Of a stretch of DNA of 64,000 nt, positions 403-16,665 are shown one piece after another. The translations under genes and the position numbers were made by a program. A model generated the notes under the pieces. It did not search any database. It saw only the letters and a list, made by a program, of their open reading frames with translations, and had not been told where the DNA came from. Origin of the DNA: Burkholderiales bacterium 39-55-53 (lineage in GTDB: Bacteria > Pseudomonadota > Gammaproteobacteria > Burkholderiales > Burkholderiaceae_C); contig NCJK01000005.1 in assembly GCA_002282445.1 (NCBI GenBank), forward strand, positions 1 to 64,000, given 5' to 3'. Every line of letters begins with the position of its first letter. Within the stretch, counting starts at the first letter, position 1.

Positions 403-1119
403 TTATTTAAGAGAGCGTCCCTCACCTTTTTCCTCAACCGTCTGTCCATCACGAATGTGATAGATGCGTTTGAAGGTTGGGATGATCTTTTCATCGTGTG
501 TTACGACGATGATGGCTGTCTGTGCGAGACGGGCCATGTCATTAAGAATTCGAATCACAGAAAGAGCACGCTCGCTATCAAGAGGTGCTGTAGGCTCATC
601 AGCCAAAATTACAGGCGGTTTGTTTGCCAACGCGCGAGCAATGGACACTCGTTGCTGCTCACCACCAGAAAGCTGAGATGGTTCAGCCTTTGCGCGGTGC
701 AACACATCTAAAGATGTCAACAACTCAAGCGCTCTTTGTCTTGCAAGCTCATTGGGAACACCAGCCAACATTGGCAACAAAGCAACGTTATCTGTCACGT
801 CCAAAAAAGGAATCAGATAAGGCGCTTGGAATACAAAACCAATACGATCGCGTCGCAAGGTTCGTAAATCTGGAATCTTCCATCCGTTGTCATAGATAAC
901 TTCATCGCCCAAAGTCATTCGCCCCGACGTGGGCTCAATGATGGCACCCAAGCATTTGAGAAGCGTACTTTTACCTGAGCCAGAAGGGCCAACAAGTCCA
1001 ACCACCTCACCCGCAGAAACTTGCATGTTGACGTTCTTCAAAGCCTCGACGGCAGTGTCCCCATGCCCGTAGACTTTGCGTAGGTTTTCAATAAGGATGC
1101 CACCTGTTTTGTATGTCAT
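403..1119 (-). CDS. ABC transporter ATP-binding protein of a HlyD/FtsX-type exporter
   Basis: ATPase subunit of the tripartite exporter encoded here. The 238-residue protein has Walker A GPSGSGKST at 44-52, Q-loop Gln98, signature LSGGEQ at 150-155, Walker B ILADEP at 171-176 and H-loop His208, so it should be catalytically complete. It belongs to the MacB/LolD/DevA-like group that powers FtsX-type permeases. I chose the ATG at MTYKTGG because a GAGGTG ribosome site precedes it and it lies 10 bases after the permease stop; a longer reading frame starting inside the permease adds a stretch unlike the family. It acts on the cytoplasmic face of the inner membrane. The substrate is unknown. Confidence 0.85.
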   Translation of the reverse strand: MTYKTGGILIENLRKVYGHGDTAVEALKNVNMQVSAGEVVGLVGPSGSGKSTLLKCLGAIIEPTSGRMTLGDEVIYDNGWKIPDLRTLRRDRIGFVFQAPYLIPFLDVTDNVALLPMLAGVPNELARQRALELLTSLDVLHRAKAEPSQLSGGEQQRVSIARALANKPPVILADEPTAPLDSERALSVIRILNDMARLAQTAIIVVTHDEKIIPTFKRIYHIRDGQTVEEKGEGRSLK

Positions 1120-1129
1120 TTCGTACACC

Positions 1130-2332
1130 TCAACTGATGGCCTGAGCCGGATCAACAAGTAAGGCAACACGAATAGCCATCGTGCTAGCCAATGCGCAGA
1201 TAAGCATCGTGGCCCCAAAACCCACAATCGCATCTTGCGTCAGAAGCAAAACAAACTTAGGAAATACTGGTGCCCAAATCGTGGCAGCAACTTTGCCCAC
1301 CACAAACCCGATCACACCTAAACCCAATGCTTGCTGCAAGATCATGGCCGCGATGGTGACGTTATGTGTACCAATCAATTTCAATACAGCAATCTCTCGA
1401 ATCTTTCCAAGAGTCATCGTGTAGATGATGAAAGCCACGATTGCGGCACTCACAACAGCAAGGATGACTAAAAACATACCAATTTGTTTGGCAGATGTTG
1501 CAATCAATTTCTCAATCAGGATTTCTTCCATGTCTGCACGAGTGAATACGGTCAGATGCTTCCAGCGGCGAATAGGTTCAGCCACATGATCGGCAGACCA
1601 CCCATCTGACACTCGCACTAAGACCGCATTGACATTACGACTACTGGTTTGTAAGTTTTGTACAGCTTCTAGCAAACCGGGCACTGCTGGCCTATTGAAC
1701 GCACCATTTACGGCAGTTCGCACACGGTCGTTCACGATTGCCTCGTTGTCTTTGAGGAACTGTGCTTCTTGCGCATCCTCGAGTGGAATGAAGACCATAG
1801 GGTCCCCGCCCGATGACACCATGCGACGTGTCAGTCCTACTACTTCGTAGGTGTGGCGTCGGATCTCGACTTTGTCACCTATAGACAAACCACTTTTAAT
1901 GTCGGCAACCGCCTCGTAGTGGCTAAGCATGAGGTGACGCCCAGCTAACAAATAGCTGGGTTGCCCTGGTAACCCCTTGGCTCCTGGCTCAATACCAACA
2001 ACCATGGCTCTCGCCTCTTTACCGCCAACAGTTTTAACCTGCATGGTGAAGTAAGTGATGTTGGACGCCATGTCGACACCCGGCATTCCCGTGATGCTTC
2101 GAACCACATCGTCTTTGAGACTTGAGGCTTCTGCATAAGGGCCTTGGGTGTCTTTTTGAACTACCCATAAATCAGCGCCGCTGTTGTTGAGCAGCGCCTG
2201 CGCATCATCAACCATGCCGCGAAATACACCAGCCATTGTTAGCGTGACGCCAATCAGCAAGCCTAGACCTAGGCCTGTTAAAACGAACTTAGCCCAGCTG
2301 TGTTGAATGTCGCGTGCAGCGAGATTAATCAT
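1130..2332 (-). CDS. FtsX-like ABC transporter permease
   Basis: A 400-residue inner-membrane protein with one N-terminal helix (about 15-38), a large periplasmic domain, and a C-terminal FtsX domain with three hydrophobic segments (about 285-395). This is the MacB/DevC topology, in which the permease transmits ATP-driven movement to a periplasmic adaptor instead of forming a channel. Its start overlaps the HlyD gene stop by 4 bases (ATGA), so the two are translationally coupled. With the adaptor and ATPase it makes a complete export unit; an outer-membrane partner is not encoded nearby. Confidence 0.82.
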   Translation of the reverse strand: MINLAARDIQHSWAKFVLTGLGLGLLIGVTLTMAGVFRGMVDDAQALLNNSGADLWVVQKDTQGPYAEASSLKDDVVRSITGMPGVDMASNITYFTMQVKTVGGKEARAMVVGIEPGAKGLPGQPSYLLAGRHLMLSHYEAVADIKSGLSIGDKVEIRRHTYEVVGLTRRMVSSGGDPMVFIPLEDAQEAQFLKDNEAIVNDRVRTAVNGAFNRPAVPGLLEAVQNLQTSSRNVNAVLVRVSDGWSADHVAEPIRRWKHLTVFTRADMEEILIEKLIATSAKQIGMFLVILAVVSAAIVAFIIYTMTLGKIREIAVLKLIGTHNVTIAAMILQQALGLGVIGFVVGKVAATIWAPVFPKFVLLLTQDAIVGFGATMLICALASTMAIRVALLVDPAQAIS

Positions 2333-3522
2333 GGCTTAATCTTTTTAACTAAAGCATCCACCACACGAAAGTTGGCACCTTCAGACAGTGCCTTTTCGCT
2401 ATAAACAACCACGGTGTCACCTGAAGCCAGCCCTTGAATTGCCTGAACTCGACCATCAAGGCTGGCAGCGCCCCATTGGACTTGCACAAACTCAAGTCGG
2501 CCATCAATGACTCGCCAGACACCTGAACGACCTTGATAAGTTTGCACACTGGCTTGCGGTATGGCTAAGGCGTCCGTTGCTTCCTTTAAGTTAAGTGTGA
2601 CTTCAGCCATTTCACCAATAGATAAAGATGGCGGCATTCGCTCAAAGGCGACCTGAGCAATTCGCTCTTCAGTTACAGCGTCCGCTTGTAGTTCCACCCG
2701 TTCAACCTTACCTAGGAGCGAGTGCTGAGGACTAGATCTCAGTACGATCTGCGCAGGCAACCCAACTTCAAGACCAGATGATCGCCCTTGGTCTACCCGC
2801 AACTTGATCCATAAACTGGATGGATTAGCCAACCTAAGAACAGGTTGCCCAGCGACAACCGTGCTGCCCGATTCAGCATCTCTGCTAATTACGACGGCAT
2901 CAGCTGGTGCTACTAATTTGGTGTTTTGCTTTTGCAAAGCAACCGCAGTTCGTTCAGCCTGCAAACGCAGGGTTTCTTGCTTAGCGGCTTGCAGGTTAGC
3001 TTGAGCAGCTTGATACGCCGCATCCGCAGATTGCAGCTCTTGATCTCGTCCCTCTAAAGCCGCAGGACTGATGAAATTTTGCTTTGCTAATTCTTCATAA
3101 CGCTTCAAATTTGCGTTCGCAAGTTCTCGTCTTGCCTTGGTGTCAGCGACTTGAGCTTTACCAGCCATCTCCACGCTAGATGCTTTAGACAAAGCAGCTT
3201 CTTGTGCATTCAAGCGTTGGTCTAGATCGACTGGGTCCATTTCTGCCAGCAACTGACCTGCTTTTACCGCCTGCCCCACATCCACATGTACTCGCAACAC
3301 ACGACCAGCTACGGTTGGACCCATAAGCCAACTTTGACGAGCCTCCACACTGCCGATTCCAAACACAGAGGGGGTTAGGCTCTCTTTTTTAATTTGGATG
3401 ACAGTAACTTTTGTTGGTGCTAACGGTCCCATGCGAAAAGCCACGAAACCAATCGTGATTAGCACTAGACCAGTTGCTGCAACCATTACGACCTGTTGCT
3501 TGCTTAATTTTGGAATTTTCAT
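2329..3522 (-). CDS. HlyD-family periplasmic adaptor (membrane fusion protein)
   Basis: A 397-residue membrane-fusion protein: N-terminal membrane anchor (about residues 10-30), a lipoyl-type half motif near 75-95 (VAGRVLRVHVDVGQAVKAGQ), a long alpha-hairpin/coiled coil rich in Ala, Gln and Glu (about 105-200), the second lipoyl half, then beta-barrel domains. Such adaptors bridge an inner-membrane pump to an outer-membrane channel. It is overlapped by 4 bases at both ends, by tetR upstream and the permease downstream, so the set is one transcription unit. DevB and MacA are the nearest named relatives by architecture. Confidence 0.85.
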   Translation of the reverse strand: MKIPKLSKQQVVMVAATGLVLITIGFVAFRMGPLAPTKVTVIQIKKESLTPSVFGIGSVEARQSWLMGPTVAGRVLRVHVDVGQAVKAGQLLAEMDPVDLDQRLNAQEAALSKASSVEMAGKAQVADTKARRELANANLKRYEELAKQNFISPAALEGRDQELQSADAAYQAAQANLQAAKQETLRLQAERTAVALQKQNTKLVAPADAVVISRDAESGSTVVAGQPVLRLANPSSLWIKLRVDQGRSSGLEVGLPAQIVLRSSPQHSLLGKVERVELQADAVTEERIAQVAFERMPPSLSIGEMAEVTLNLKEATDALAIPQASVQTYQGRSGVWRVIDGRLEFVQVQWGAASLDGRVQAIQGLASGDTVVVYSEKALSEGANFRVVDALVKKIKP

Positions 3523-4145
3523 TTGGACGTACCTGCTTTTTTCACGGAAGAAGCAAGAAGTCCCGCCTCATAAATGCTGAACACTGTTTTTGCTTGCTGT
3601 TTTATCTTTTCGAGACTGCCAGTAATTAGTGACTGCATCACCAGGCCTTGGATTGCGCCAATAAACAGAACCACAGCTGCTTGCAAATCAGCTTCAGGTG
3701 AAATCTCAGCATCCTTGCGAGCTTGTGCCAGGAGTCCAGAAATCAATTGCCGGTAGTCAGCCATAAGCAGCTGAACCCTCTCTTTAAGCAGGGTCTGCTC
3801 GGGATGCTGAAGCTCCTGAAAGATCAACCTAGGAACGCCTGGATATTGCTGAACAAAGCTGATATGAGCCATGAACACAGCTCTTAAGGACTTAAAGGCC
3901 GTTTGATTTCTTACTTTGGCTTCCAGCATCAATTTTTTCATTAGATCTTGATGCGCCCACTCAATAGCAGCAAGCCAGATGGCCTCTTTACTGTCAAAGT
4001 GCTTAAACACACCGCCTTGAGTGATTCCAATGACATTTGCCAAGTCACCCGTAGTAATTTCACTGGGACTCTTAGTTGCAGCCAAAAGCAAAGCAGCGGC
4101 TACTAACTCGGCTTGCCGATCTTCAGTTTTGAGCTTGGGTCGCAA
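3519..4145 (-). CDS. TetR/AcrR-family transcriptional regulator
   Basis: A 208-residue one-component repressor. The N-terminal HTH (about residues 8-55) has the TetR signature, ending in GGVFKHFDSKEAIW; the C-terminal half is a helical ligand domain. It is the first gene of the exporter operon and so probably represses its own transcription and that of the pump. The start is TTG: an in-frame TGA lies two codons upstream, and GAGGGG sits 7 bases before the TTG. A 20-bp perfect dyad lies 20-39 bases upstream and is the likely operator. The inducer is unknown, presumably a pump substrate. Confidence 0.85.
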   Translation of the reverse strand: MRPKLKTEDRQAELVAAALLLAATKSPSEITTGDLANVIGITQGGVFKHFDSKEAIWLAAIEWAHQDLMKKLMLEAKVRNQTAFKSLRAVFMAHISFVQQYPGVPRLIFQELQHPEQTLLKERVQLLMADYRQLISGLLAQARKDAEISPEADLQAAVVLFIGAIQGLVMQSLITGSLEKIKQQAKTVFSIYEAGLLASSVKKAGTSK

Positions 4146-4164
4146 AAGTCACCCCTCATTAATT

Positions 4165-4184
4165 AAGTAATTGATGAATTACTT
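4165..4184. promoter_or_regulatory. Candidate TetR operator (8-4-8 dyad)
   Basis: Perfect inverted repeat AAGTAATT-GATG-AATTACTT placed 20-39 bases before the tetR start. Arm length, AT-rich core and position are typical of autorepressed TetR operators. The assignment to this TetR is inference from position. Confidence 0.6.
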
Positions 4185-4236
4185 TAACACGTATTGGTTT
4201 AATGTGTGTCTTTACAAATTCATCTTCAAAACTGAT

Positions 4237-4252
4237 CAACTTTGACAAGTTG
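4237..4252. promoter_or_regulatory. Short dyad upstream of the HTH gene
   Basis: Inverted repeat CAACTT-TGAC-AAGTTG lies 69-84 bases before the start of the HTH gene at 4321. HTH proteins of this size often repress themselves, so this could be its operator. Arms of six bases can occur by chance, hence the low score. Confidence 0.3.
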
Positions 4253-4320
4253 CAGCAATCACTGATGTCGCTGAAAATACTCGAACTCACTCACCTTTTC
4301 TAGCTGAATAAACATTACAA

Positions 4321-4746
4321 ATGACTACCTTTGCCAATCAGCTCAAATCTGAAATCGCACGTATTGCTAAAAAAGAGGCTCGCGCTGAGACTCACCAACT
4401 CAAGAAAGCATCTGCCCAATATCGATCAGACATCGCCGCCTTGAAGCGTCACATCGGTGCTCTTGAGGCAACTGTGAAGAAGTTACAAAAGGGTCAACCA
4501 AAGCCTGTACTTAAAGTTGAGGAAGAGCCAGCCACCGCCCTTCGCTTCCGTGCTGGTGGTTTTGCAACCCTTCGCAAGAAGCTGGATTTATCCGCAGAAC
4601 AGATGGGAAAGTTGATTGGCGTTTCAGCGCAATCGGTCTATCACTGGGAAGCTGAGAAGTCTCGCCCACGTGCAAGCCAACTACCAGCCATAGCTGCCGC
4701 TCGTAAGCTTGCAAAGAAAGAAGCTTGGGCGAAGTTAGGTCTCTGA
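4321..4746 (+). CDS. XRE-type HTH protein with N-terminal coiled coil
   Basis: A 141-residue protein in two parts. Residues 1-60 are strongly charged and helical (Lys, Glu, Ala-rich), consistent with a coiled coil. Residues 80-130 form a XRE-type HTH: a run of LRKKLDLSAEQMGKLIGVS followed by QSVYHWEAEKSRPR, where the second helix of the fold and the SxxxYxWE recognition pattern are clear. A Lys-rich tail follows. It is followed 6 bases later by the GIY-YIG-like gene and is probably cotranscribed with it. No clear Shine-Dalgarno is seen. A role as DNA-binding partner or regulator of the nuclease-like protein is inference. Confidence 0.75.
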   Translation: MTTFANQLKSEIARIAKKEARAETHQLKKASAQYRSDIAALKRHIGALEATVKKLQKGQPKPVLKVEEEPATALRFRAGGFATLRKKLDLSAEQMGKLIGVSAQSVYHWEAEKSRPRASQLPAIAAARKLAKKEAWAKLGL

Positions 4747-4752
4747 TCAAAC

Positions 4753-5073
4753 ATGCGTGAACGTCACAACGTCTACGTCATCGAATTAGACAAAGACGTT
4801 CTTTACGAGGCCAAATTCAAGAAAGCCAATCCGGATTACGTAACTGGCAAGCCTTGTGTCTATGTAGGCATGACTGGTCAAGACCCCGACACTCGCTTTG
4901 ACCAACACAAGGCTGGTATCAAATCCAACAAGTACGCCATGAAGTACGGCATTCGACTGATGCCCGAGATCTACGAAAAACTCAACCCAATGCCCTATGG
5001 TGATGCTCAATACATGGAAGTCGATCTAGCCATCAGGTTGCAGCAGTTGGGCTATGGAGTTTGGCAAAGTTAG
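4753..5073 (+). CDS. GIY-YIG nuclease-like small protein
   Basis: A 106-residue protein whose first 70 residues fit a compact GIY-YIG fold: VYVIEL at 4-9 replaces the GIY strand, CVYVGMT at 35-41 replaces YIG, and DPDTRFDQHKAG supplies the usual Arg and His. The Glu near the C-terminus (ME at about 92-93) could be the metal ligand. The family cuts DNA, but divergence in both core motifs means activity cannot be assumed. It follows the HTH gene by 6 bases, probably coupled, and is convergent with the SRAP gene. Confidence 0.65.
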   Translation: MRERHNVYVIELDKDVLYEAKFKKANPDYVTGKPCVYVGMTGQDPDTRFDQHKAGIKSNKYAMKYGIRLMPEIYEKLNPMPYGDAQYMEVDLAIRLQQLGYGVWQS

Positions 5074-5109
5074 TGTTCCTGTGCCAATCGTAGCTCTTGG
5101 CTAGAATTT

Positions 5110-5745
5110 TTATAGTCTCGGCGCAGACATGGCTCTGAGCTCTGGCATATGTGACCAAGTCATCAGTTCGGATGCTTGCGCTACGTCAGCGCCTAACCAT
5201 GCATCGTGGAGATCTGGAGCAATGATCACAGGGGTGCGCTTCTCGTCACCCGGCTTGTGAAACTGACGCATTACAGGGTGCTCGTCGGCGTTGACCGTGA
5301 GCATGGAGAAACTGACCACCAGTTCGCCAGATGCTGAATCAGTCCACCGGTCCCAAAGGCAAGCAATTCCGAACGGCTCCTTTGAAGCGAGTTCAATCTT
5401 CCAGCGCATCGCCCTGCCCGACTCATAACTTGGCTCATAGAAGTTATCGACCAAGACGAGACCGTATTGACGTTGACGCCACGCAGTTCGGTAACTTGGC
5501 TTCTCCGCCGCTGTCTCACTCCTGGCGTTGTAGGTGTGACGTGCAATTTTCTCGTCTTTGGCCCATGTTGGGATCAGTCCAAACTTAGCCAACCCGCAGG
5601 CTACGCGCCCTGTTTGGTGGCTTTTCACAACTACGGGCGCAGCAAATCCCGGGTATGACTCCGCTGGGTAATCAGCTGGTAGCGCTACTCCCAGCTTATC
5701 TTTGACCCACTGGCTCTTTTTGGTTGGCGTGAAATTTGTGCACAC
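5110..5745 (-). CDS. SRAP domain protein (SOS response-associated, YedK/HMCES type)
   Basis: SRAP proteins form a covalent thiazolidine link through Cys2 with abasic sites in single-stranded DNA, shielding them from cleavage. The 211-residue product has Cys2 directly after Met1, Asn73 in NARSE, Glu104 in FYEP and His163 in QFH, matching the four active-site positions of E. coli YedK. The segment after His163 (KPGDEKRTPVII) is longer than the usual HDRMP and is a variant. Translation begins at ATG immediately followed by TGC, which fixes the start because Cys2 must be exposed. The gene is divergent from the gp32-like gene across 85 bases. Confidence 0.88.
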   Translation of the reverse strand: MCTNFTPTKKSQWVKDKLGVALPADYPAESYPGFAAPVVVKSHQTGRVACGLAKFGLIPTWAKDEKIARHTYNARSETAAEKPSYRTAWRQRQYGLVLVDNFYEPSYESGRAMRWKIELASKEPFGIACLWDRWTDSASGELVVSFSMLTVNADEHPVMRQFHKPGDEKRTPVIIAPDLHDAWLGADVAQASELMTWSHMPELRAMSAPRL

Positions 5746-5830
5746 AATTGCAGTTTAGTGTTCGGGACTGTAGTTTGCTTGCCTGATGAGTAGAAGTTGG
5801 TAATGCTCATCAAACCGGAGCTTTGAATGT

Positions 5831-6631
5831 ATGAGTAATTCTCTTGAAAAAATGCGTAAATTGCTAACCACTAAGAATCCTGAATTAGCAACTCTAGCTT
5901 CGAAACCTCGCGCAGATACATCCATCTACCGGCATTGGGAAATGGCATTGAACGCGACAGCAACACTGCGGTTTCTTCCTGATGGGAACACTAACAACTC
6001 ATTTTTTTGGGTTGAGCGAGACATGATCAAACTTCCATTTGCTGGCATCAAAGGGAAACCAGAAATTAAACCTCTACAAGTTTTGGTGCCATGCATGCAG
6101 ATGTACGACGAAGAATGTCCAGTTCTTCAAGAGGTTCGAGCATGGATGAAAGATCCAACCCTTGAAGAAATGGCACGACGGTATTGGAAAAAGCGTAGCT
6201 ACTTCTATCAAGGCTTTGTTCGCGAATCACCATTTCACGAATCAGAGGCACCTCAAAATCCGATTCGTCAGTTCATCATCGGCCCACAAATTCACTGCCT
6301 AGTGCTGAACATGCTGATGCACAGAGACTTATTAGAGTCTCCTTGCGACATCGAACGGGGCATGGACTTCACTATTAAAAAGACTGATAAAAGTGGTTAC
6401 GCCAACTATGACCAATCGTATTGGGCATTCAAGGAATCGGCCCTCAGTAGTACTGAACGAGAAGCAGTAGATGTTTACGGACTTAAGGACCTTGACACAC
6501 ATCTACCACCCAAGCCCACCGCAGATGGAGTCAGAGTGATACGTGAGATGTTTGAGGCTAGCATTGATGGTGAGTTGTATGACTCAGCTCGATGGGCTGA
6601 GTACTTTGCGCCTTATGGCTTAACTACTTGA
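5831..6631 (+). CDS. Phage T4 gp32-like single-stranded DNA-binding protein
   Basis: A 266-residue protein that fits the core of T4-like phage gp32 proteins, which coat single-stranded DNA in replication and repair. In order: RFLP at 47-50, a Cys segment at 88-98 with CPV, YWKKRSYFYQGFV at 118-130, FIIGPQIHCLV at 148-158, GMDFTIKK at 177-184, and YANYDQS at 190-196, the last two matching the GxDF and YxNYDxS pattern of gp32. The third zinc Cys of T4 gp32 is Leu99 here, so a zinc site may be lost. The acidic C-terminal tail of gp32 is not evident. The assignment is from motif recall, not a search. Neighbours are SRAP (divergent) and a CWC protein. Confidence 0.7.
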   Translation: MSNSLEKMRKLLTTKNPELATLASKPRADTSIYRHWEMALNATATLRFLPDGNTNNSFFWVERDMIKLPFAGIKGKPEIKPLQVLVPCMQMYDEECPVLQEVRAWMKDPTLEEMARRYWKKRSYFYQGFVRESPFHESEAPQNPIRQFIIGPQIHCLVLNMLMHRDLLESPCDIERGMDFTIKKTDKSGYANYDQSYWAFKESALSSTEREAVDVYGLKDLDTHLPPKPTADGVRVIREMFEASIDGELYDSARWAEYFAPYGLTT

Positions 6632-6677
6632 GAGCAGCTGATCTCCTCTACGACTGATACAAGTCCTGAAAGTACAA

Positions 6678-6881
6678 ATGCACCCAATTGATCCAACTCG
6701 TTGTCCGATCTGTAACGAACTGAATATTTGTGCCATGGAAAAGGCAAAGGCAACTGGCAGCGAGCTCGAGCGCTGCTGGTGCGTGGATGCAGTGTTTACG
6801 CCCGCTATGATCGATAAAGTACCTGAGTCAGCTAAAGGCAAGGCCTGCATTTGCGCCAGATGTGCTGCTGCGGGAGCATGA
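6678..6881 (+). CDS. Cysteine-rich CWC family small protein
   Basis: A 67-residue protein with Cys at 9, 12, 18, 33 and 35 and further Cys near the C-terminus, in the spacing CPICNxxNxC ... CWC ... CICxxC typical of the Cys-rich CWC family, probably a metal-binding knuckle. Function is unknown. It follows the gp32-like gene by 46 bases on the same strand, and could share its transcript. Confidence 0.75.
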   Translation: MHPIDPTRCPICNELNICAMEKAKATGSELERCWCVDAVFTPAMIDKVPESAKGKACICARCAAAGA

Positions 6882-7019
6882 ATCTGTGAAATATTTCGAC
6901 TCTGTGCGGGAGAGGCAAACTCACAGCTTGAGTCATACTTAGTTCATATGAAATATGAAGTAACCAGGTTTAAAGATCTTCAAAAAATATTCCAGATTAA
7001 TCATTTACAGTTTTGAATT

Positions 7020-7043
7020 TTCTTGCTACATTTGTAGCAAGAA
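7020..7043. promoter_or_regulatory. Operator of the toxin-antitoxin operon
   Basis: A perfect 24-bp dyad with 11-base arms (TTCTTGCTACA and its complement, spacer TT) ends 18 bases before the antitoxin ATG. A GGAGAAG ribosome site lies between them. Type II antitoxins bind such palindromes and autorepress. The core TGCTACA/TGTAGCA is a common pattern in such promoters. Confidence 0.7.
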
Positions 7044-7061
7044 TTAATTTTTGGAGAAGTT

Positions 7062-7286
7062 ATGGGACTGCCCGTTCGAATCGACAGTGATCTTTACGAT
7101 CAAGCCAAGTCACACGCGCATGCAGAGCGAAGAACTATATCTGGACAAATTGAGTTTTGGGCCATGATTGGTAAGGCCGCCCTGGACAACCCAGACTTGC
7201 CCATCGACTTTGTGCGCGATTTGATGATCGCAAAAGGTGAAGGTAAATCCTTGGCCACTCCGTTTATGCCGCAAAGCAAACACTAA
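7062..7286 (+). CDS. ParD-like antitoxin
   Basis: A 74-residue protein beginning MGLPVRIDSDLYDQAKSHA, the ParD-like (ribbon-helix-helix) antitoxin start, with ERRTISGQIEFWAMIGKAALDNPDLP as the second helix. It should neutralise the adjacent RelE toxin and bind the upstream palindrome. The stop overlaps the toxin start by one base (TAATG), giving tight coupling. GGAGAAG precedes the ATG at good spacing. Confidence 0.85.
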   Translation: MGLPVRIDSDLYDQAKSHAHAERRTISGQIEFWAMIGKAALDNPDLPIDFVRDLMIAKGEGKSLATPFMPQSKH

Positions 7287-7567
7287 TGGCTTCAAAGCAA
7301 ATTCAAGTCACCCAATCCTCAGCTTTTGCTCGAGGCTACAAGAAATTACACCTTAAGCAAAAAAATGATGTCGACGCAGCTGTTGATGTCATCGTTGCTG
7401 ACCCTCTAGTAGGCGAACCTAAGCGCGGTGATCTCGCTGGCGTTTATGTCTATAAATTCAAAAGTCAAACGCAACTCATGTTGCTTGCCTATGAGTTCGA
7501 TCCCAAGACGCGTCATCTGCTGCTACTTGGCTCGCATGAGAACTTTTATAGAGAACTCAAACGCTAA
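7286..7567 (+). CDS. RelE/ParE-superfamily toxin
   Basis: A 93-residue toxin with the RelE/StbE fold signature: an N-terminal AFARGYKKLHLKQK segment, a central VGEPKRGDLAGVYVYKF strand pair, and the end LLLLGSHENFYRELKR, which carries the conserved HENFY and basic tail. RelE-type toxins cut mRNA on the ribosome; ParE types poison gyrase, and sequence alone does not separate them here. Translation is coupled with the antitoxin. A degraded HU gene follows. Confidence 0.83.
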   Translation: MASKQIQVTQSSAFARGYKKLHLKQKNDVDAAVDVIVADPLVGEPKRGDLAGVYVYKFKSQTQLMLLAYEFDPKTRHLLLLGSHENFYRELKR

Positions 7568-7594
7568 ACACAGGCAACTGACCTGCGAAACTAG

Positions 7595-7810
7595 GCCGGT
7601 ACCAGCGCACTTGAATCCATCATTGATGCATTCAAGAAGACGCACAAAAATGGCGGCACCGTTTCCTTCGTTGGTTTCGGTTCTTTTTCTGTTGGTAAGC
7701 GTGCTGCTCGCACAGGTCGTAACCCACGCACTGGTGCAGCAATCAAGATCAAGGCAGCTAAGGCACAACACAATCGAATGATTAAGTGCCTCAAACTAAC
7801 ATCCCTTTAG
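7595..7810 (+). pseudogene. Broken HU (histone-like) gene, 5' end and 3' tail lost
   Basis: Translation gives a stretch reading AGTSALESIIDAFKKTHKNG, then GGTVSFVGFGSFSVGKRAAR and TGRNPRTGAAIKIKAAK, which is the middle and beta-arm of a betaproteobacterial HU protein. An in-frame TAG precedes it (7592-7594), and the first about 20 residues of HU are absent. After KAAK (ends 7762) the frame diverges from the HU tail (which should read VPKFRPGKALKD) and stops at 7810, overlapping the ureG stop on the other strand. It is a remnant, not a working gene, and sits exactly at the junction between the AT-rich accessory DNA and the urease operon. Confidence 0.8.
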
Positions 7811-8444
7811 TCTCGATGAACTTCACCACCTCTTGCAAACCATCCAGCGTGCGCAGGTTGGTCATAACAAAAGGCTTCAAGCCACTCGCGTTGGTACGCA
7901 TGCGTATGGTGTCGGCCTCCATCACATCCAAGTTTGCGCCGACGTAGGGCGCGAGGTCTGTTTTGTTGATGATGAACAAATCGCTCTTGGTGATGCCAGG
8001 GCCACCTTTACGGGGAATCTTCTCACCAGCCGCCACGTCGATCACGTAAATCGTCAAGTCGCTCAGCTCGGGGCTGAAAGTGGCCGCCAAGTTATCGCCA
8101 CCACTTTCGATGAACACCACGTCGGCATCTGGAAACTCAACCAACATGCGATCAATCGCTTCGAGGTTGATCGACGCATCTTCGCGAATGGCGGTATGCG
8201 GGCAACCGCCCGTTTCTACACCCATGATGCGCTCAGCAGGCAGCGCGCCGCTGATGGTCAACAAGCGTTGGTCTTCCTTGGTGTAGATGTCGTTGGTGAT
8301 GGCAACGAGGTCGTAGGTGTCGCGCATGGCTTTGCACAGCATTTCCAACAAAGTGGTTTTGCCTGAGCCCACAGGCCCACCGATGCCCACGCGCAAAGGT
8401 GGAAGTTTTTTGGTGCGGTTGGCGATGGTATGTAAGTGCTTCAT
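7791..8444 (-). CDS. ureG: Urease accessory GTPase UreG
   Basis: UreG supplies GTP hydrolysis for nickel delivery to urease. The 217-residue protein has the P-loop GGPVGSGKT at 22-30, the NDIYTKEDQ stretch and the metal-binding CPHTAIRED (Cys-Pro-His) near 80, and FIESGGDN and NKTDL motifs of the SIMIBI GTPase class. It starts 4 bases inside the ureF stop (coupled). Length is normal. It is the last gene of the minus-strand urease operon and meets the HU remnant on the opposite strand. Confidence 0.97.
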
Positions 8445-9148
8445 GATCTGAACAGTCGAGAGTATTGAGTTTCATGCTGAGCCGACAGAATGGCCAGCAT
8501 GGGTGAGAAAGCTTGTCGTGTGTCGTCCGTCACTTGCAGTGCGTTGCTGACGGCGGGTGCGATGTGTTGGGCCAATTTAGTCAAGATGCGTTGGCCAGAG
8601 TTTTGCCCCAGAGGCACCGACTTGATGGCGGCTTGCACCATGTTCTCGGCCCAGCCAAAGGCATAGGCTTGCAGGCATTGGTCAAGGGGCGCGCCAGTGC
8701 GCGATAGCGCCAAGGCAAACATCAGCGGATAGGTAGGCACACAACGGTTGCACATGGCGATGGTGTGGTCGTCAATCGCGTTTTGGTTACGCAGCCACTC
8801 CAACATGGAGCGACCCATTTGTTCGCTTTGCAAGCGTAGCTCGGCGCTTTCACGGGTCGCATGCACCCACTGACTCAAAGCTTCCAGACGCGCCTCATCG
8901 CGAGCTTTCCATGCCGTGATCATTTGACCGAGCACCGCCATGTCGCCACGCGACTGCGTGAGGTGCAGCTGGTCCACCAACCACTCGGCTGCGCTGTGTT
9001 CGTCATGCACCATGCCATGATCAATCGCTGCTTCTAATCCTTCGGAGTACGAGAAGCCCCCAATCGGCAACGCGGGTGACGCGAGCCAGATGAGTTGAAG
9101 CAGCACTGGCGTTGACAACGGCGCTGCAGTGGCGGCATCAATGGTCAT
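8441..9148 (-). CDS. ureF: Urease accessory protein UreF
   Basis: UreF links UreD and UreG to apourease and acts as a checkpoint for nickel loading. Its [14 protein letters not shown] stretch is diagnostic. I chose the ATG reading [21 protein letters not shown], giving 235 residues, the family length; the longer frame up to 9277 adds a Met-rich stretch overlapping ureE out of frame. This start overlaps the ureE stop by 11 bases. Confidence 0.95.
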
Positions 9149-9701
9149 GTTTGCAGTTGGGCCCATGCACATGACCGTGTGAGTGATCTGCGTGATCATG
9201 GCTGTGGCTGTGCTCATGGGTGTGACCATGGCCTTGCGCATGCCCATGGCTGCTGTACGCGCCACCTTCTGGCTCAAACGCTTCTTGCACGGTGACCACC
9301 GTCATGTGCATGGCACACAGCATGTCGGCCAACACATGGTCGGGCTCGATCTTCAAATGGTCGGGTTGCAACTCAATCGGCACATGTCGGTTGCCCAAGT
9401 GATATGCCGCACGCGTCAAATCAAACGATGAGCCGTGCTCGGCACACGCGGTGATGCGCAGCACTTCTTGCGGAGCAGCTTGCACACGCACGAGTGAGCC
9501 GTCTTCCAGCACCAGCACATCGCCGCCGCGCACCAAGGTGCCGCGTGCCAAAAAAACACCAAAGGCACGGCCATTTGAATCGGTCGCATCAAATCGGCTT
9601 TTTTGGCGCACATCCCAATCCAGCTCCACCGTGGCGGCGCGTTTGACCAGTGCCGCGGCCAAGCCTTGGCCACCCGCGATTAATTTAGAACAAGTGAGCA
9701 T
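9138..9701 (-). CDS. ureE: Urease nickel-binding chaperone UreE
   Basis: UreE carries nickel to urease. The 187-residue protein has the UreE N-domain ([22 protein letters not shown]) and a metal-binding domain ending in a strongly His-rich tail (about residues 155-187, with [19 protein letters not shown]), a nickel-storage tail that many UreE proteins lack. The central YHLGNRHVP motif holds the conserved His of the interface. It is followed by ureF with an 11-base overlap and lies 9 bases after ureC. Confidence 0.97.
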
Positions 9702-9710
9702 CAGAGAAAT

Positions 9711-11453
9711 TTAAAACAAGAAATAACGTTGGGTCATGGGCAAACTCACCGCAGGTTCGCAGGTAAGCAAATGACCATCGGCGCGCACCGCATAGGTTTG
9801 CGCATCCACTTCCATGCGCGGCGCGTAGTCGTTATGAATCATGTCACGTTTTCCAACGCTGCGAATGTTCTTCACGACACTGAGAGTTTTGTGCAAACCA
9901 AACTTTTGTCCAATGCCTGCGGTCATACCCGCTTGCGACACGAAGGTAAGCGAGCCGCGATGCAGCGCACCGCCATAGGCCCCAAACATCGGGCGGTAGT
10001 GCACGGGCTGAGGCGTTGGGATAGATGCATTCGGGTCGCCCATCGCCGCCATGGCGATGAAGCCACCTTTCAAAATAATGCTGGGCTTGATGCCAAAGAA
10101 TGCTGGCTTCCACACCACGAGGTCAGCCCACTTGCCTACCTCCACACTGCCCACTTCATGGCTGATACCGTGTGCAATGGAGGGGTTGATGGTGTACTTG
10201 GCGATGTAGCGCTTCACGCGTGCGTTGTCGTGACGGTCGGTATCGCCGGGTAACAAGCCGCGTTGCGCTTTCATCTTGTGCGCGGTTTGCCACGTGCGAA
10301 TGATCACCTCACCCACACGGCCCATGGCTTGGCTGTCGCTACTCATCATGCTGATGGCGCCTAGGTCGTGCAAGATGTCTTCAGCCGCAATCGTCTCGCG
10401 GCGAATGCGGCTTTCGGCAAACGCCAAGTCTTCGGCAATCGCGGGGTCGAGGTGGTGACACACCATGAGCATGTCCACATGCTCGTCGAGCGTATTCACC
10501 GTGTAAGGGCGGGTTGGGTTGGTCGAGCTGGGCAATACATTGGCCTCGCCCACCACTTTCAAAATATCTGGCGCGTGGCCACCGCCTGCACCTTCGGTGT
10601 GGAAGGTGTGGATGGTTCGGCCTTTGAACGCGGCCACCGTGTCTTCCACAAAGCCCGACTCATTGAGCGTGTCGGTGTGGATGGCCACTTGCGTGTCGGT
10701 GGCTTCGGCCACGTTCAAACAGTTGTCGATGGCAGCGGGTGTAGTACCCCAGTCTTCGTGCAGCTTCAAACCAATTGCGCCTGCGTTGATTTGCTCGTGC
10801 AACGAATCGGGCAAAGCGGCATTGCCCTTGCCTAAGAAGCCTAGGTTCATCGGGAAGGCATCCGCCGATTGCAACATGCGCTCAATGTTCCAAGCCCCCG
10901 GCGTGCAAGTCGTGGCAAAGGTGCCAGTGGCGGGGCCTGTGCCGCCGCCGAGCATGGTGGTCACACCGCTCGTCAACGCTTCTTCAATTTGCTGTGGCGC
11001 GATGAAGTGGATGTGTGTGTCCACACCACCTGCGGTCACGATGTTGCCCTCGCAACTGATGACCTCGGTGCCTGGGCCAATGACGATGTCCACGCCCGGC
11101 TGTGTGTCGGGGTTGCCCGCTTTGCCAATGGCCACGATGCGGCCACCTTTCAAACCAATGTCGGCCTTAACGATGCCCCAGTGGTCGATGATGAGCGCAT
11201 TGGTCATCACCGTGTCTACAGCACCGCCCGCTTGCGGGCCCGTGCCTGCACCTTCGCGTGTGCGCTGCGATTGCGCCATGCCATCGCGGATGGTTTTGCC
11301 ACCGCCGAACTTCACCTCTTCGCCATAGCCGCCCGCTTTGAGTGTGAAGTCTTGTTCAACTTCCACTACCAAATTGGTGTCTGCCAAGCGCAAGCGGTCG
11401 CCCACGGTGGGGCCAAACATTTCTGCGTAGGCGCGTTTGCCGATGGTTGCCAT
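9711..11453 (-). CDS. ureC: Urease alpha subunit
   Basis: Catalytic subunit of urea amidohydrolase (urea to ammonia and carbamate). Nickel ligands are present: His147, His149, the carbamylated Lys230, His259, His285 and Asp373, plus catalytic His333 of the flap. These are exactly 13 positions beyond Klebsiella aerogenes numbering, and the protein is 580 residues instead of 567, so there is one 13-residue insertion before residue 147, most likely at 62-76 (rich in Gly, Thr and Gln). ureB stop and ureC start overlap (TAATG). It should be active. Confidence 0.98.
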
Positions 11454-11788
11454 TACTTGTGTCCTTTATCGGCTGCGCCTTGATCAATCGCGCCGTTCAC
11501 CAAACCGCGAAAGCCAAACACTTGGCGGTCGCCACTCAGGTCCACCAACTCGACTGTGCGTTGTTGGCCTGGTTCAAAGCGCACCGCGGTGCCTGATGCG
11601 ATGTTCAAACGCATGCCATGTGCAGCAACGCGTTCAAATCTCAGGCCTGCGTTGGTCTCTGCAAAGTGGTAATGCGAGCCCACTTGAATGGGGCGGTCGC
11701 TGGCGTTTTGTACGACGAGTGTGTGCGTGCGTCGTCCTGGGTTGAGGATGTGTTCCCCCTCGTCGATAAACAGTTCACCGGGTGTCAT
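11453..11788 (-). CDS. ureB: Urease beta subunit
   Basis: Beta subunit of urease, 111 residues, starting [16 protein letters not shown] with the conserved FIDEGE and the [11 protein letters not shown] segment. It folds as a beta-barrel that packs against UreC. Its stop overlaps the ureC start by one base. The gap to ureA is filled by a separate small membrane-protein gene. Confidence 0.97.
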
Positions 11789-11800
11789 GCATTCCTCGCT

Positions 11801-11965
11801 TTATTTGTCACGACCGAGCCACCACATGACCGCGACCACGCAGGCAAATGCGACAAAGCCCCATACATCGGTCGCGTGGTAATGCGAAGCGCTTTCGATG
11901 CCATGGCCTTCATGAGCAACCGCCATCACAGGCAAAAAGGAGGTGAGAGAAACAAGTTTTTTCAT
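11801..11965 (-). CDS. 54-residue membrane protein inside the urease operon
   Basis: A complete short gene between ureA and ureB. The product begins MKKLVSLTSFLPVMAVAHEG, continues HGIESASHYHATD, then has a hydrophobic helix (about 30-48) ending WWLGRDK. The first 17 residues resemble a signal peptide with cleavage after AVA or AHE, leaving an HEGHG-type motif at the periplasmic N-terminus and one membrane helix. The HEGHG pattern and the helix resemble the start of HupE/UreJ nickel permeases, but only one helix is present, so it is not a transporter by itself. Spacing: 6 bases after ureA, 12 before ureB. A nickel-related role is inference. Confidence 0.75.
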   Translation of the reverse strand: MKKLVSLTSFLPVMAVAHEGHGIESASHYHATDVWGFVAFACVVAVMWWLGRDK

Positions 11966-11971
11966 AGCTGT

Positions 11972-12274
11972 TCAAACAATGGGTTGATGCACGGTCACAA
12001 GTTTGGTGCCGTCGGGGAATGTGGCTTCAACTTGGATGTCTGGAATCATCTCGGCCACGCCATCCATCACGTCGGCACGGGTGAGCACATTGCGGCCTTC
12101 GCTCATCAATTGCGCCACGGTTTTGCCATCGCGCGCACCTTCCATGACAACGGCGCTGATAAGGGCCACGGCCTCGGGGTAGTTGAGCTTTAAGCCACGG
12201 GCTCGTCGGCGCTCGGCCAACAAGGCGGCAGTGAAGATCAAGAGCTTGTCTTTTTCGCGGGGTGTGAGTTCCAT
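11972..12274 (-). CDS. ureA: Urease gamma subunit
   Basis: Gamma subunit, 100 residues, beginning [12 protein letters not shown] and containing the conserved [17 protein letters not shown] and VPHQPI-type tail (here TVHQPIV). With UreB and UreC it builds the (UreABC)3 trimer. It is the first gene of the minus-strand urease operon. A ribosome site is not evident before the ATG, and the best promoter-like match would give a leader of about four bases. UreD is encoded away from this operon. Confidence 0.96.
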
Positions 12275-12289
12275 AGTTCAATTTTCTAT

Positions 12290-12304
12290 GCAACTTGCGT
12301 GCCC
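12290..12304 (-). promoter_or_regulatory. Sigma54-like -24/-12 match facing ureA (uncertain)
   Basis: On the minus strand the sequence reads GGGCAC-GCAAG-TTGC, close to the TGGCAC-N5-TTGC consensus, with GG and GC separated by 10 bases. The predicted start at about 12278 would leave only about 4 bases before the ureA ATG, so it would make a leaderless message. It may be a chance match. Confidence 0.35.
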
Positions 12305-12342
12305 TGTTTTGCACAGCACTCCACAGCCCAAATGCACGCTTT

Positions 12343-12432
12343 GGTGCGCAAATCCTTTCTTGGTGCGCATTTTTTGAGGCAAATTTCAGCCCCAGTATGG
12401 TGCATATTTATTTTTTTGACCACAAATGGTGC
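12343..12432. promoter_or_regulatory. Cluster of four GGTGC half-sites (possible NtrC enhancer)
   Basis: GGTGC occurs in the same orientation at 12343, 12362, 12399 and 12428, between the two divergent operons. NtrC binds TGCACC-like dyads with GGTGC halves. The third site, GCCCCAGTATGGTGC, has a full 15-base dyad with one mismatch in the left half; the others are half-sites, the first with a six-base gap instead of seven. Placed about 95-180 bases before the urtA start site, this is the usual NtrC enhancer position. Confidence 0.5.
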
Positions 12433-12498
12433 AGTCTGTCTCGTCCTTAGCAAGCCCTTATATAGACATCATTTTGTGCATCTAGGAGAAATACAAGT

Positions 12499-12513
12499 TG
12501 GCACAGGGTTTGC
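12499..12513 (+). promoter_or_regulatory. Sigma54 promoter of urtA
   Basis: TGGCAC-AGGGT-TTGC is an exact match to the sigma54 -24/-12 consensus, with GG and GC 10 bases apart. The predicted start is near 12525, leaving a leader of about 57 bases and a GGAG ribosome site before the urtA ATG. This implies activation by an enhancer-binding protein, NtrC being the obvious choice for a urea transporter. Confidence 0.8.
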
Positions 12514-12581
12514 GATAGGTCTTTCGAAGCGCACCGCTACCGCGAGCGCCGAACAACCCTTAATTTTTGGAGTGAACCCCC

Positions 12582-13856
12582 ATGATGAATCGTCGAGGAA
12601 ATTTGAAAGTTTTGGCTGCTGCAGCAGCACTGTCTGTCGGCACATTGGTCTTAGCGCCACAAGCGTCGGCCGCAGACACCATCAAAGTTGGCGTGCTGCA
12701 CAGCTTGTCCGGCACCATGGCAATTTCTGAAACCGTGTTGAAAGACACCGTGCTCATGGCCATCGACGAAATCAACGCCAAAGGCGGCGTGTTGGGCAAG
12801 AAGCTCGAACCCGTGGTGGTTGACCCCGCTTCTAACTGGCCATTGTTCGCTGAGAAAACCAAGCAACTCATCGGTCAAGACAAGGTGTCTGTCATCTTCG
12901 GCTGCTGGACATCGGTGTCTCGCAAATCGGTGTTGCCCGTCGTGGAGGAAATGAACGGCTTGCTGTTCTACCCCGTGCAATACGAAGGTGAGGAGCTGAG
13001 CAAAAACGTGTTCTACACAGGCGCTGCGCCAAACCAGCAAGCCATCCCAGCTGTGGATTACTTGATGAGCAAAGACGGTGGCGCTGCCAAGCGATGGGTC
13101 TTGTTGGGCACAGACTACGTTTACCCACGCACCACCAACAAAATTCTGCGCGCTTACCTCAAGAGCAAAGGCGTGGCTGACAAAGACATCGACGAAAAGT
13201 ACACGCCGTTTGGTCACAGCGATTACCAAACCATCGTGGCTGACATCAAGAAGTTTTCTGCCGGCGGCAAAACTGCCGTGGTGTCAACCATCAACGGTGA
13301 CTCCAACGTGCCCTTCTACAAAGAACTCGGCAACGCTGGTTTGAAAGCCAAAGACGTTCCTGTGGTTGCCTTCTCGGTCGGTGAAGAAGAGTTGCGCGGC
13401 GTGGACACCAAGCCTTTGGTCGGTCACTTGGCAGCATGGAACTACTTCATGTCCATCAAGAACCCAGCCAACGACGAGTTCATCAAGAAATGGGCTGCAT
13501 ATGCCAAGGCCAAAAACATCGCTGGCCACAAAGACAAGCCCTTGACCAACGACCCCATGGAAGCCACCTACATCGGCATCAACATGTGGAAGCAAGCGGT
13601 TGAAAAAGCCAAGTCCACCGACACCGACAAAGTGATTGCAGCGATGGCTGGCCAAACTTTCAAGGCACCGAGCGGCATCACCTCGAAGATGGACGAGAAG
13701 AACCACCACTTGCACAAGTCGGTGTTCATCGGCGAGATCAAGGCTGACGGCCAGTTCAACGTGGTTTGGAAAACACCAGGCCCTGTGAAAGCCAAGCCAT
13801 GGAGCCCCTTCATCGAAGGCAACGCTTCAAAGCCTGATGAACCTGTGAAGAAGTAA
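12582..13856 (+). CDS. urtA: Urea ABC transporter substrate-binding protein
   Basis: Periplasmic receptor of the urea-specific branched-chain-type ABC transporter. The 424-residue protein has a signal peptide ending ASA (about residue 30) and the UrtA-type text IKVGVLHSLSGTMAISET, GCWTSVSRKSVLPV and FYPVQYEGEE, which separate urea receptors from amino-acid receptors. It is preceded by a sigma54 promoter. A strong terminator follows the stop codon, so UrtA should be made in excess over the membrane subunits. Confidence 0.96.
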   Translation: MMNRRGNLKVLAAAAALSVGTLVLAPQASAADTIKVGVLHSLSGTMAISETVLKDTVLMAIDEINAKGGVLGKKLEPVVVDPASNWPLFAEKTKQLIGQDKVSVIFGCWTSVSRKSVLPVVEEMNGLLFYPVQYEGEELSKNVFYTGAAPNQQAIPAVDYLMSKDGGAAKRWVLLGTDYVYPRTTNKILRAYLKSKGVADKDIDEKYTPFGHSDYQTIVADIKKFSAGGKTAVVSTINGDSNVPFYKELGNAGLKAKDVPVVAFSVGEEELRGVDTKPLVGHLAAWNYFMSIKNPANDEFIKKWAAYAKAKNIAGHKDKPLTNDPMEATYIGINMWKQAVEKAKSTDTDKVIAAMAGQTFKAPSGITSKMDEKNHHLHKSVFIGEIKADGQFNVVWKTPGPVKAKPWSPFIEGNASKPDEPVKK

Positions 13857-15533: not shown

Positions 15534-15534
15534 C

Positions 15535-16665
15535 ATGACACACAACACTTCTACTTTGCAGTTGCCCGAGCCTCCCGCGTTATTGGGAACCAAGGGCTGG
15601 CTATTTTTCTTAACAGCGCTGATCACCATTTGCATGGTGGTTCCGGTGCTCAATTTATGGGTGCCCGCTGGCAGCATATTCCACATGAGTGACTACGCCG
15701 TGGCCTTGGTCGGCAAGATCATGTGCTATGCCATCTGTGCGCTGGCCATGGATTTGATCTGGGGTTACACCGGGATTTTGTCGCTCGGCCATGGTTTGTT
15801 TTTTGCGCTCGGCGGCTACATGATGGGTATGTATCTGATGCGTCAAATTGGCACGGACGGCAACTACAAAAGCAACCTGCCAGACTTCATGGTGTTCCTC
15901 GACTGGAAAACCTTGCCTTGGCACTGGACCTTCAGCGACAGCTTCCTCGCCACATTACTTTTGATTGTGTTGGTGCCAGGTGTGCTCGCCTTTGTGTTTG
16001 GCTATTTCGCGTTTCGCTCCCGCATCAAAGGCGTGTACTTCTCTATCATCACGCAGGCCATGACGTTTGCGGCCATGCTGCTGTTCTTCCGCAACGAAAC
16101 GGGTTTTGGCGGCAACAACGGTTTCACCGATTTCAAGCGGATTTTGGACTTGCCAATTGCTACGCCAGCCATGCGCATGACCCTGTTTGTACTGACAGGT
16201 TGGATCTTATTGATGAGCTTCCTATTTGCTCGTTGGTTGGTACAGAGCAAGTTTGGCCGCGTGCTGCAAGCCATTCGCGATGCCGAGAGCCGCGTGATGT
16301 TTTCCGGCTACTCGCCCATGCCCTACAAGCTCACCATTTGGGTCATTTCGGCCGTGATGTGCGGCATTGCCGGCGCCTTGTATGTACCGCAAGTCGGCAT
16401 CATCAACCCCAGTGAAATGAGCCCTGCCAATTCGATTGAGATGGCGGTGTGGGCTGCTGTCGGAGGACGTGCTTCTTTGATTGGCCCCATCGTGGGAGCA
16501 TTCCTGGTCAACGGCATGAAGAGCTGGTTGACGGTGACAGCGCCTGAATTTTGGTTGTACTTCCTTGGCGCGTTGTTCATTGGCGTGACGCTGTACATGC
16601 CACACGGTGTGGTGGGCTTGATACAAAAGCTCAGCACCAAGAAAAAAGCAGAGGAGCGTGTATGA
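15535..16665 (+). CDS. urtC: Urea ABC transporter permease UrtC
   Basis: Second permease subunit, LivM-type, 376 residues with about ten hydrophobic segments. Family motifs include DLIWGYTGILSLGHGLFFALGG and RVMFSGYSPM. I start it at MTHNTST because GGAG lies 7 bases upstream, immediately after the urtB stop; the frame is open from 15520 but that would overlap urtB without gain. It ends in a 4-base overlap with urtD. Confidence 0.95.
   Translation: MTHNTSTLQLPEPPALLGTKGWLFFLTALITICMVVPVLNLWVPAGSIFHMSDYAVALVGKIMCYAICALAMDLIWGYTGILSLGHGLFFALGGYMMGMYLMRQIGTDGNYKSNLPDFMVFLDWKTLPWHWTFSDSFLATLLLIVLVPGVLAFVFGYFAFRSRIKGVYFSIITQAMTFAAMLLFFRNETGFGGNNGFTDFKRILDLPIATPAMRMTLFVLTGWILLMSFLFARWLVQSKFGRVLQAIRDAESRVMFSGYSPMPYKLTIWVISAVMCGIAGALYVPQVGIINPSEMSPANSIEMAVWAAVGGRASLIGPIVGAFLVNGMKSWLTVTAPEFWLYFLGALFIGVTLYMPHGVVGLIQKLSTKKKAEERV

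Follow-up and report, generated by a model that had tools for sequence, protein, structure and literature searches.

Why does a bacterial chromosome hold a gene for a phage-type single-stranded DNA (ssDNA) binding protein (SSB) where no phage surrounds it, and what could such a protein do there? The question is raised by an open reading frame (ORF) in the first 64,000 nucleotides (nt) of contig NCJK01000005.1 from Burkholderiales bacterium 39-55-53 (assembly GCA_002282445.1); this whole stretch is called the window here. The ORF is intact, starts with ATG and encodes 266 amino acids (aa), and it lies exactly where a sequence-only reading had placed it, at 5831-6631 on the + strand, stop codon included. 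The motifs given in that reading and their gp32-like order are borne out, with RFLP at residues 47-50, YWKKRSYFYQGFV at 118-130, FIIGPQI at 148-154, GMDF at 177-180 and YANYDQS at 190-196. The gene is almost certainly a captured core of a jumbo-phage SSB that has no C-terminal tail, and its product is considered below as a possible poison of jumbo-phage replication. The gene consists of these parts:

5817..5820, + strand: putative ribosome-binding site GGAG, 10 nt 5′ of the ATG (read from the sequence)
5831..6631 including the stop, + strand: tail-less jumbo-phage-type SSB with the gp32 fold, 266 aa (ORF call, PHROG 1192, fold and tail census)
5831..5905, + strand: N-terminal helix and linker, residues 1-25, retained; the site of the gp32 cooperativity (B) region (alignments)
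5954..6622, + strand: gp32-like core, about residues 42-264 (Pfam match at 41-199, alignments and Foldseek)
6092..6127, + strand: reduced zinc region with C88 and C96 retained and Leu99 at the position of T4 C90 (hhalign)
6623..6631, + strand: C-terminal end Thr-Thr-stop, where phage-type proteins run on (tail census)
6632..6688, + strand: 19 in-frame codons 3′ of the stop, rich in Ser, Thr, Pro and Glu and without the conserved tip of phage tails (translation)

The sequence-only reading called the product a T4 gp32-like SSB. The fold and a weak profile match agree with this, whereas the nearest family, as judged from the sequence, is the jumbo-phage SSB family PHROG 1192 rather than T4 gp32 itself. 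PHROG 1192 (“single strand DNA binding protein”) is matched with an E value of 1.8e-48, residues 1-257 aligning to profile positions 1-249 of 326; a second and weaker PHROG match is to PHROG 224 (E 6.7e-5). The profile search against gp32 that had been proposed finds Pfam PF08804 at E 2.5e-4, but with 21.6 bits, under the gathering score of 26.8, and NCBIfam gives no family at E<=0.01. Because of these last two results the protein would probably be named a hypothetical protein by standard annotation.

A sequence search of the PDB shows gp32 at E 0.024-0.052 only, and the top rank is taken by a designed helix bundle with three short repeated matches. An AlphaFold model built from an alignment of 38 sequences (window, Polynucleobacter and environmental) has a pLDDT of 85.3 and a pTM of 0.76, with the helix at residues 5-15 modelled at low confidence (pLDDT 61, 65 and 41 in the N-terminal block). 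At E<=0.001 Foldseek matches this model to six PDB chains, and all six are gp32 of T4 or RB69 (TM-score on the target 0.62-0.73). Sixty-four viral models are matched at the same threshold; the best 50 of these 64, where they are named, are phage SSBs, DNA-binding proteins or uncharacterised proteins.

The phage origin also proposed in the sequence-only reading is well supported. In tblastn searches the protein matched 77 of 50,697 phage records, all at less than 60% identity, and no record among 72,556 plasmids, and in trees the window copy falls among phage sequences. The best 40 of the 77 begin with PA5oct-type Pseudomonas phages (284-288 kb, 48.3-48.7% identity), followed by Atu_ph07, Phosso, RaK2-like and 121Q-like phages; nearly all of these 40 are larger than 280 kb, and three are of 86-110 kb. 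Among the remaining 37 are 13 Synechococcus phage records. Proteins on environmental viral contigs have up to 58% identity, and a search for closer viral relatives with the protein's own peptides found none.

The early stop first became apparent when the window protein was aligned with nine phage proteins, which run on past its end. A census of C-terminal tails was made from 179 loci, comprising phage records, environmental viral contigs, a contig from a spirochaete metagenome-assembled genome (MAG) and two chromosomal copies, the second being that of Polynucleobacter sp. UK-Gri1-W3; the collection scans supplied the best 80 of at least 600 matches in one case and the best 80 of 131 in another. 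At least 150 core model positions are present in 178 of the 179 loci, and 168 have a closed 3′ end and yield 143 distinct proteins; 10 loci that run off the end of their contig were set aside. Of the 143 proteins 141 are phage-type, and a tail of 53-89 aa (median 69) follows the core in 141/141, a figure that includes close relatives and is not a number of independent events. By contrast, only 2 residues follow the core in the window protein and none in the Polynucleobacter protein, so that both intact chromosomal copies are tail-less.

The tails of the phage-type SSBs have a common layout, a variable linker rich in Ala, Pro and acidic residues and then a short conserved tip, commonly DILAMIRARQ, which is probably an interaction peptide. 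The tip pattern lies near the end of 140 of the 141 proteins, and the remaining one has, by eye, the near-identical NILAMIRSRQ. These tails are mildly acidic, with medians, over 86 proteins, of 10 acidic residues and 6 basic ones, whereas that of T4 gp32 is strongly acidic and not of this form with a short tip. Both the linker and the DILAMIRARQ-like tip of PHROG 1192 are absent from the window SSB, and because tail and tip are missing it is called a tail-less derivative and not a full member of the family. The sequence-only reading was correct in noting that there is no acidic C-terminal tail; this is the real oddity, and the one further intact chromosomal copy that was found shares it.

The zinc site is another matter. 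That a Cys has been lost is true, but it is the norm of the family and not an oddity of this protein. In hhalign comparison with T4 gp32, window C88 corresponds to C77, C96 to C87 and L99 to C90, and by eye only, the ligand His64 has no clear counterpart. Across 91 cores (89 phage-type, the window and the Polynucleobacter copy) both cysteines are present in 91/91, and the T4 C90 position is occupied by L in 87, I in 2, H in 1 and N in 1, with Cys in none. Since the third Cys is absent in 91/91 sampled cores, its loss is a trait of the whole sampled branch, and the idea that it is a special feature of the window SSB was rejected.

Relatives in non-phage genomes, which the sequence-only reading suggested looking for, do exist: they are the Polynucleobacter copy and a relic in another genome of the same order. 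A scan of the genome_contigs collection (84,980 species) with two peptide patterns, from which diverged copies would escape, gave two loci, one on a 492-kb contig of Polynucleobacter sp. UK-Gri1-W3 and one on a 3-kb spirochaete MAG contig. The latter (L012) was dropped as a chromosomal copy, being a phage-like contig with a terminase-like ORF (named by eye). Whole genomes were then searched by profile or protein, in taxon sets that overlap and that hold some incomplete genomes. The SSB is found in 1/186 genomes of the Polynucleobacter genome's genus, which is that genome itself; in 2/399 of the order, these being the window genome and the relic; in 1/32 of the family of the relic genome (G704); in 2/369 of the class, which are the window genome and a phage-like contig inside a MAG; and in 1/398 of the phylum. 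That MAG (G1145) was likewise dropped as a phage contig, as its 403-aa SSB lies beside a RecA/UvsX-like ORF (by eye). On the contig (C266, locus L111) dUTPase-like, tailed T4-type SSB and RecA/UvsX-like genes can be read by eye, and it probably is DNA of a phage that was placed in a bacterial MAG by the binning.

The G704 relic is a 41-residue piece of the C-terminal part of the SSB core, with a stop 7 residues later and no tail. An integrase-like fragment lies about 1.7 kb away and is, over 119 residues, 37% identical to one of the integrases in the Polynucleobacter stretch. Genes near the relic (L096:8283-8462) also encode a UvrD-like helicase of 778 aa, named by eye, and a secreted-type protein of 140 aa and unknown function.

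The Polynucleobacter SSB (L011:9995-10786, 263 aa) has a jumbo-phage-type core and is 46% identical to the window protein. Around its gene are two integrases, a MazG-like protein, two adjacent SLFN-g3 helicases and an Mrr-domain PDC-S02 protein. The SLFN-g3 helicase adjoining the SSB, whose gene is divergent from the SSB gene at a distance of 125 bp, is an almost full match to the PADLOC candidate PDC-S41 (E 5.4e-282), and both helicases show a weak PADLOC similarity to Nhi, the outer one (L011:6008-7903) at E 1.1e-11 and the inner one at E 3.5e-5. The SSB itself, like that of the window, matches no family of PADLOC 2.0 at E<=0.01.

The same stretch encodes a gp44-like clamp-loader ATPase of 230 aa (L011:2429-3121). 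Its best family is PHROG 168 (E 6.8e-30) and its best NCBIfam model is matched at E 7.8e-16; it aligns to residues 14-212 of the 319 of T4 gp44 at 31% identity, and the C-terminal third is missing. That third is the collar through which clamp-loader subunits assemble. The protein matched 1757 phage records, at about 31% identity at best among the matches listed, and 11 pattern matches from a search of viral contigs included no relative. The 276-aa unknown protein encoded upstream of it has no match in phage records. No structural genes were found among the proteins scanned in the stretch, which cover part of its ORFs, and no attachment repeats were recognised. With one jumbo-phage terminase as the query, the Polynucleobacter genome has a single weak match (G477:C2:109147-109383, L203; 39% over 75 residues, E 3.9e-6), which sits on another contig than the SSB. 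Also in Polynucleobacter, a palindrome of 20 bases (AGCGTCTAGTTGCTAGACGC type) occurs eight times between 417 and 19811 of locus L112, both inside and outside the integrase/defence stretch and in most cases at the end of a gene; perhaps this is a repeated terminator.

The contig opens with an accessory stretch beside the urease operon, and in it the window gene sits singly. Its neighbours are:

4321..4746, + strand: helix-turn-helix (HTH) protein of the Cro/C1 type (PF01381)
4753..5073, + strand: GIY-YIG-like small protein, 106 aa (profile match under the gathering score)
5110..5745, - strand: SRAP/YedK (HMCES) domain protein, divergent from the SSB gene, with 85 bp between the two starts (PF02586, E 8.3e-34)
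6678..6881, + strand: Cys-rich CWC protein (PF14375)
7062..7567, + strand: pair of ParD-like antitoxin and ParE-like toxin (PF11903, PF15781)

The outer flanks, 403-4145 and 7791-13856, hold an ABC/HlyD/TetR set and urease and urea-uptake type genes, and no phage structural, packaging or integration genes were found in the ORFs examined there. The same single jumbo-phage terminase query had 0 matches in the window genome. With that query blank and the flanking ORFs metabolic, a remnant jumbo prophage was rejected, and a surrounding prophage, which would have spoken against the sequence-only reading, is not supported. Two further candidates were set aside. The SRAP protein matches 49 phage records, and the 12 listed among these are all <200 kb; it was rejected as a jumbo-phage passenger, no record >200 kb being among those 12. 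A phage-type clamp loader in the window genome was also rejected: the 16 PHROG 168 matches there are uninformative because all 14 control genomes match this family too.

The ureG region was found in 16/16 sister genomes searched. In the flanks of eight of them DNA similarity sets in no more than 12 bases from the ureG end; the only match further left is the GIY-YIG-like gene, in one genome (96% identity). In that sister genome the gene (L102:8660-8980) has the same place beside ureG with other genes around it, and it may be mobile. Up to the ureG end, at 7592-7795, lies a 5′-truncated relic of an HU/IHF-type DNA-binding protein (FVGFGSFSVGKRAARTGRNPRTG; family named by eye), which perhaps shows where an insertion or rearrangement once took place. 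The GC content at third codon positions (GC3) is 0.42 in the window SSB gene and 0.40-0.58 in eleven genes over 403-7567; it is 0.69-0.71 in UreG, UreC and the genes at 12582-13856 and 15520-16665, the latter named by eye.

The sequence-only reading also held that the gene had been kept by the bacterium. Compared with 144 phage cores, the window copy has residues that are rare (<=2%) in 59 of 260 columns, and it retains 27/27 invariant columns (hypergeometric p 6e-4); the Polynucleobacter copy has 57 rare columns and also retains 27/27 (p 8e-4). These figures supersede a smaller set of 89 phage cores with 44 invariant columns, of which the window copy retains 43 and the Polynucleobacter copy 42. 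Such conservation argues for a working SSB core. The relationship of the two copies depends on the sampling: a tree of 87 rows pairs them at 84/87, with a long-branch warning, whereas in a more widely sampled tree of 34 rows they are paired in 0% of 200 bootstrap trees and the window copy joins L033 and L119 at 96/90. They have rare residues in common in 5 of 26 columns (e.g., position 224, F in phages and H in both copies), which is not clearly above chance.

A mechanism can be proposed from these results. The core of the window SSB would still fold and bind ssDNA, probably cooperatively, because its N-terminal region and conserved core residues are retained; we infer the cooperative binding from the modelled fold and these residues. 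In T4 gp32 the N-terminal B region has the cooperativity role, and the C-terminal A-domain contacts the gp61 primase and the gp59 helicase loader, as stated in passages of PMC3012046. gp32 minus its C-domain (*I) binds ssDNA without a blocking step and destabilises helices more strongly, according to a passage of PMC5892887. By analogy with *I, binding by a protein without the tail would be free of self-inhibition and tail-dependent partner proteins would not be called in; we infer, in agreement with the earlier suggestion, that partner binding differs from that of phage SSBs. If made before or during a jumbo-phage infection, the window SSB would join the phage's own SSB in coating phage ssDNA, and the replication fork would be starved of the proteins normally recruited by the tail. 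The outcome would be a subunit-poisoning (dominant-negative) resistance protein. Subunit poisoning has reportedly been engineered with a phage primase by Sturino and Klaenhammer in 2007. The hypothesis that the window SSB poisons jumbo-phage replication is put forward because two replisome-type proteins of the Polynucleobacter stretch each are without their C-terminal contact region, and we give it a probability of about 0.35.

Several points weigh against poisoning. The SSB is rare: it is found in 1/84 genomes of its own genus (1/40 of those of good quality, 44 of the 84 being under the quality line) and in 1/399 of its own family, no more than two intact chromosomal copies are known, and the G704 relic shows that such copies can decay. 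At the window locus no integrase is among the families found for 4321-7567, and PADLOC gives weak HTH matches and nothing else. The T4 tail partners are only an analogy here, and the PHROG 1192 tip is short and partly basic; even for T4 gp32 the RNase H contact is placed on the tail in one passage of PMC3012046 and on the core in another, and a bare core might still recruit something. For the truncated clamp loader, a jumbo-phage source is not evident from its nearest listed phage matches, at about 31% identity. The conservation test has its own limit. When divergent phage SSBs are left out one at a time they retain most invariant columns too (L007 27/31, L003 27/29, L121 23/27), and the test therefore means “still a working-type SSB” and not “selected in the bacterium”. 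An unsampled phage may already have carried the diverged form when the gene was captured; the claim that the gene was kept is fairly supported by the intact ORF and the 27 invariant residues but is weakened by change that may be older than the capture. In addition, a common tail-less ancestor is not rejected by an approximately unbiased (AU) test (p 0.375), and one or two tail losses both stand.

Nearly as likely as poisoning is a gene that was captured passively and is heading for decay, the tail having been lost by a stop codon, as low-complexity tails easily are, and the protein being functionless. This would fit its presence in one genome of the genus, the GC3 of 0.42 compared with about 0.70 in four urease and urea-uptake genes, the 41-residue tail-less remnant near an integrase fragment in G704, and the Ser/Thr/Pro-rich in-frame stretch 3′ of the window stop, which is possibly a linker leftover. 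The ORF is nevertheless intact with a plausible ribosome-binding site, all 27 phage-invariant residues are retained despite 59 unusual ones, and the same truncation boundary (2 and 0 residues) is found in both copies, whose identity is only 46%. A different role, and an unlikely one, is that of a jumbo-phage satellite module, in which trimmed helper SSB and clamp loader draw the helper's machinery to satellite DNA and the window copy is a leftover. The Polynucleobacter stretch, with integrases, clamp loader and SSB and no structural gene among its scanned proteins, would fit this, and satellites of jumbo phages exist, the island I55 being transduced by a jumbo phage according to a passage of PMC12595487. 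Yet a trimmed SSB would be a poor recruiter, attachment repeats are not recognised in the Polynucleobacter stretch, and around the window gene neither an integrase nor a primase was found among the scanned neighbours and no flanking direct (attachment) repeats are convincing.

More doubtful still is a partnership with an adjoining protein of DNA-processing or defence type (SRAP in the window, the SLFN-type helicase in Polynucleobacter), the core SSB being a cofactor, a brake or a standing decoy for a sensor. Each intact SSB gene has a DNA-processing gene in divergent orientation, at 85 bp in the window and 125 bp in Polynucleobacter, and the Polynucleobacter helicases, the outer more than the inner, are weakly Nhi-like. 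Such a role is conceivable, as phage SSBs are reported to activate several defence systems, among them AbpAB, Hna, Hachiman, Nhi and Retron-Eco8, as described in parts of PMC10732053 and PMC13381803, and also of PMC12409349. Against it, the two neighbours are of different families, and a trigger-like protein should activate the system even when no phage has infected the cell. Least probable is an SSB domesticated for host repair or recombination. The adjoining SRAP gene would suit this, the SRAP family also acting on ssDNA, but the other 83 of the 84 genus genomes have no match (with the quality limit given above), and the protein has no tail for contacting host repair proteins.

If the poisoning of jumbo-phage replication were true, the window SSB would be the natural equivalent of the engineered kind of subunit poisoning, aimed at jumbo phages, and the SSB tail would be a part that a host gains by leaving out. 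A wider form of this idea is about as doubtful as the relic: bacteria would repeatedly capture jumbo-phage or T4-type replisome genes (SSB, clamp loader), retained without their partner-contacting ends in defence islands as natural subunit poisons. On the same doubtful footing, such poisons would be little noticed in annotation, their SSBs having no NCBIfam match and falling under the Pfam cut-off. Even if the gene is a relic, the contrast of 141/141 tails with 0/2 in the chromosomal copies marks the tip as a conserved feature of phage SSBs. Among the best matches, by title and start of abstract, in the open-licence PMC literature there was nothing on a chromosomal tail-less phage SSB or on natural poisoning by phage replisome proteins. 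Taken as a whole, what the sequence-only reading observed is confirmed, and of its interpretation the phage origin, the lack of a prophage and, fairly, the keeping of the gene stand, while T4 gp32 as the closest family and the zinc loss as an oddity do not.

It remains to compare the window SSB with known systems. With the jumbo-phage SSBs of PHROG 1192 (PA5oct/Ettore, Atu_ph07, RaK2, PBECO4/121Q, XbC2) it shares the core and the reduced zinc site; their genes lie near a terminase and/or a RecA/UvsX-type gene in most annotated phages examined, whereas the window gene stands alone. The likeness to gp32 of T4 and RB69 lies in the same fold, the RFLP motif, the KKRS/KRKTS basic stretch, the GxxF and NYD blocks and two of the four zinc ligands; in contrast, the window protein is under the Pfam gathering score and is without the zinc ligand C90 and the acidic A-domain. 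Its closest counterpart in composition is gp32 *I, which also has the N-terminal region and core without the tail, but *I is a truncated form studied in the laboratory, whereas in the window the gene itself is short. The Polynucleobacter SSB is likewise tail-less and divergent from a DNA-processing gene, and only it lies amid integrases, a clamp loader and defence-type genes. Finally, in SSB-sensing defence (AbpAB, Hna, Hachiman, Nhi and Retron-Eco8) the phage SSB is, as here, a point of contact between phage and host; those systems encode a sensor, whereas here the bacterium encodes the SSB itself.
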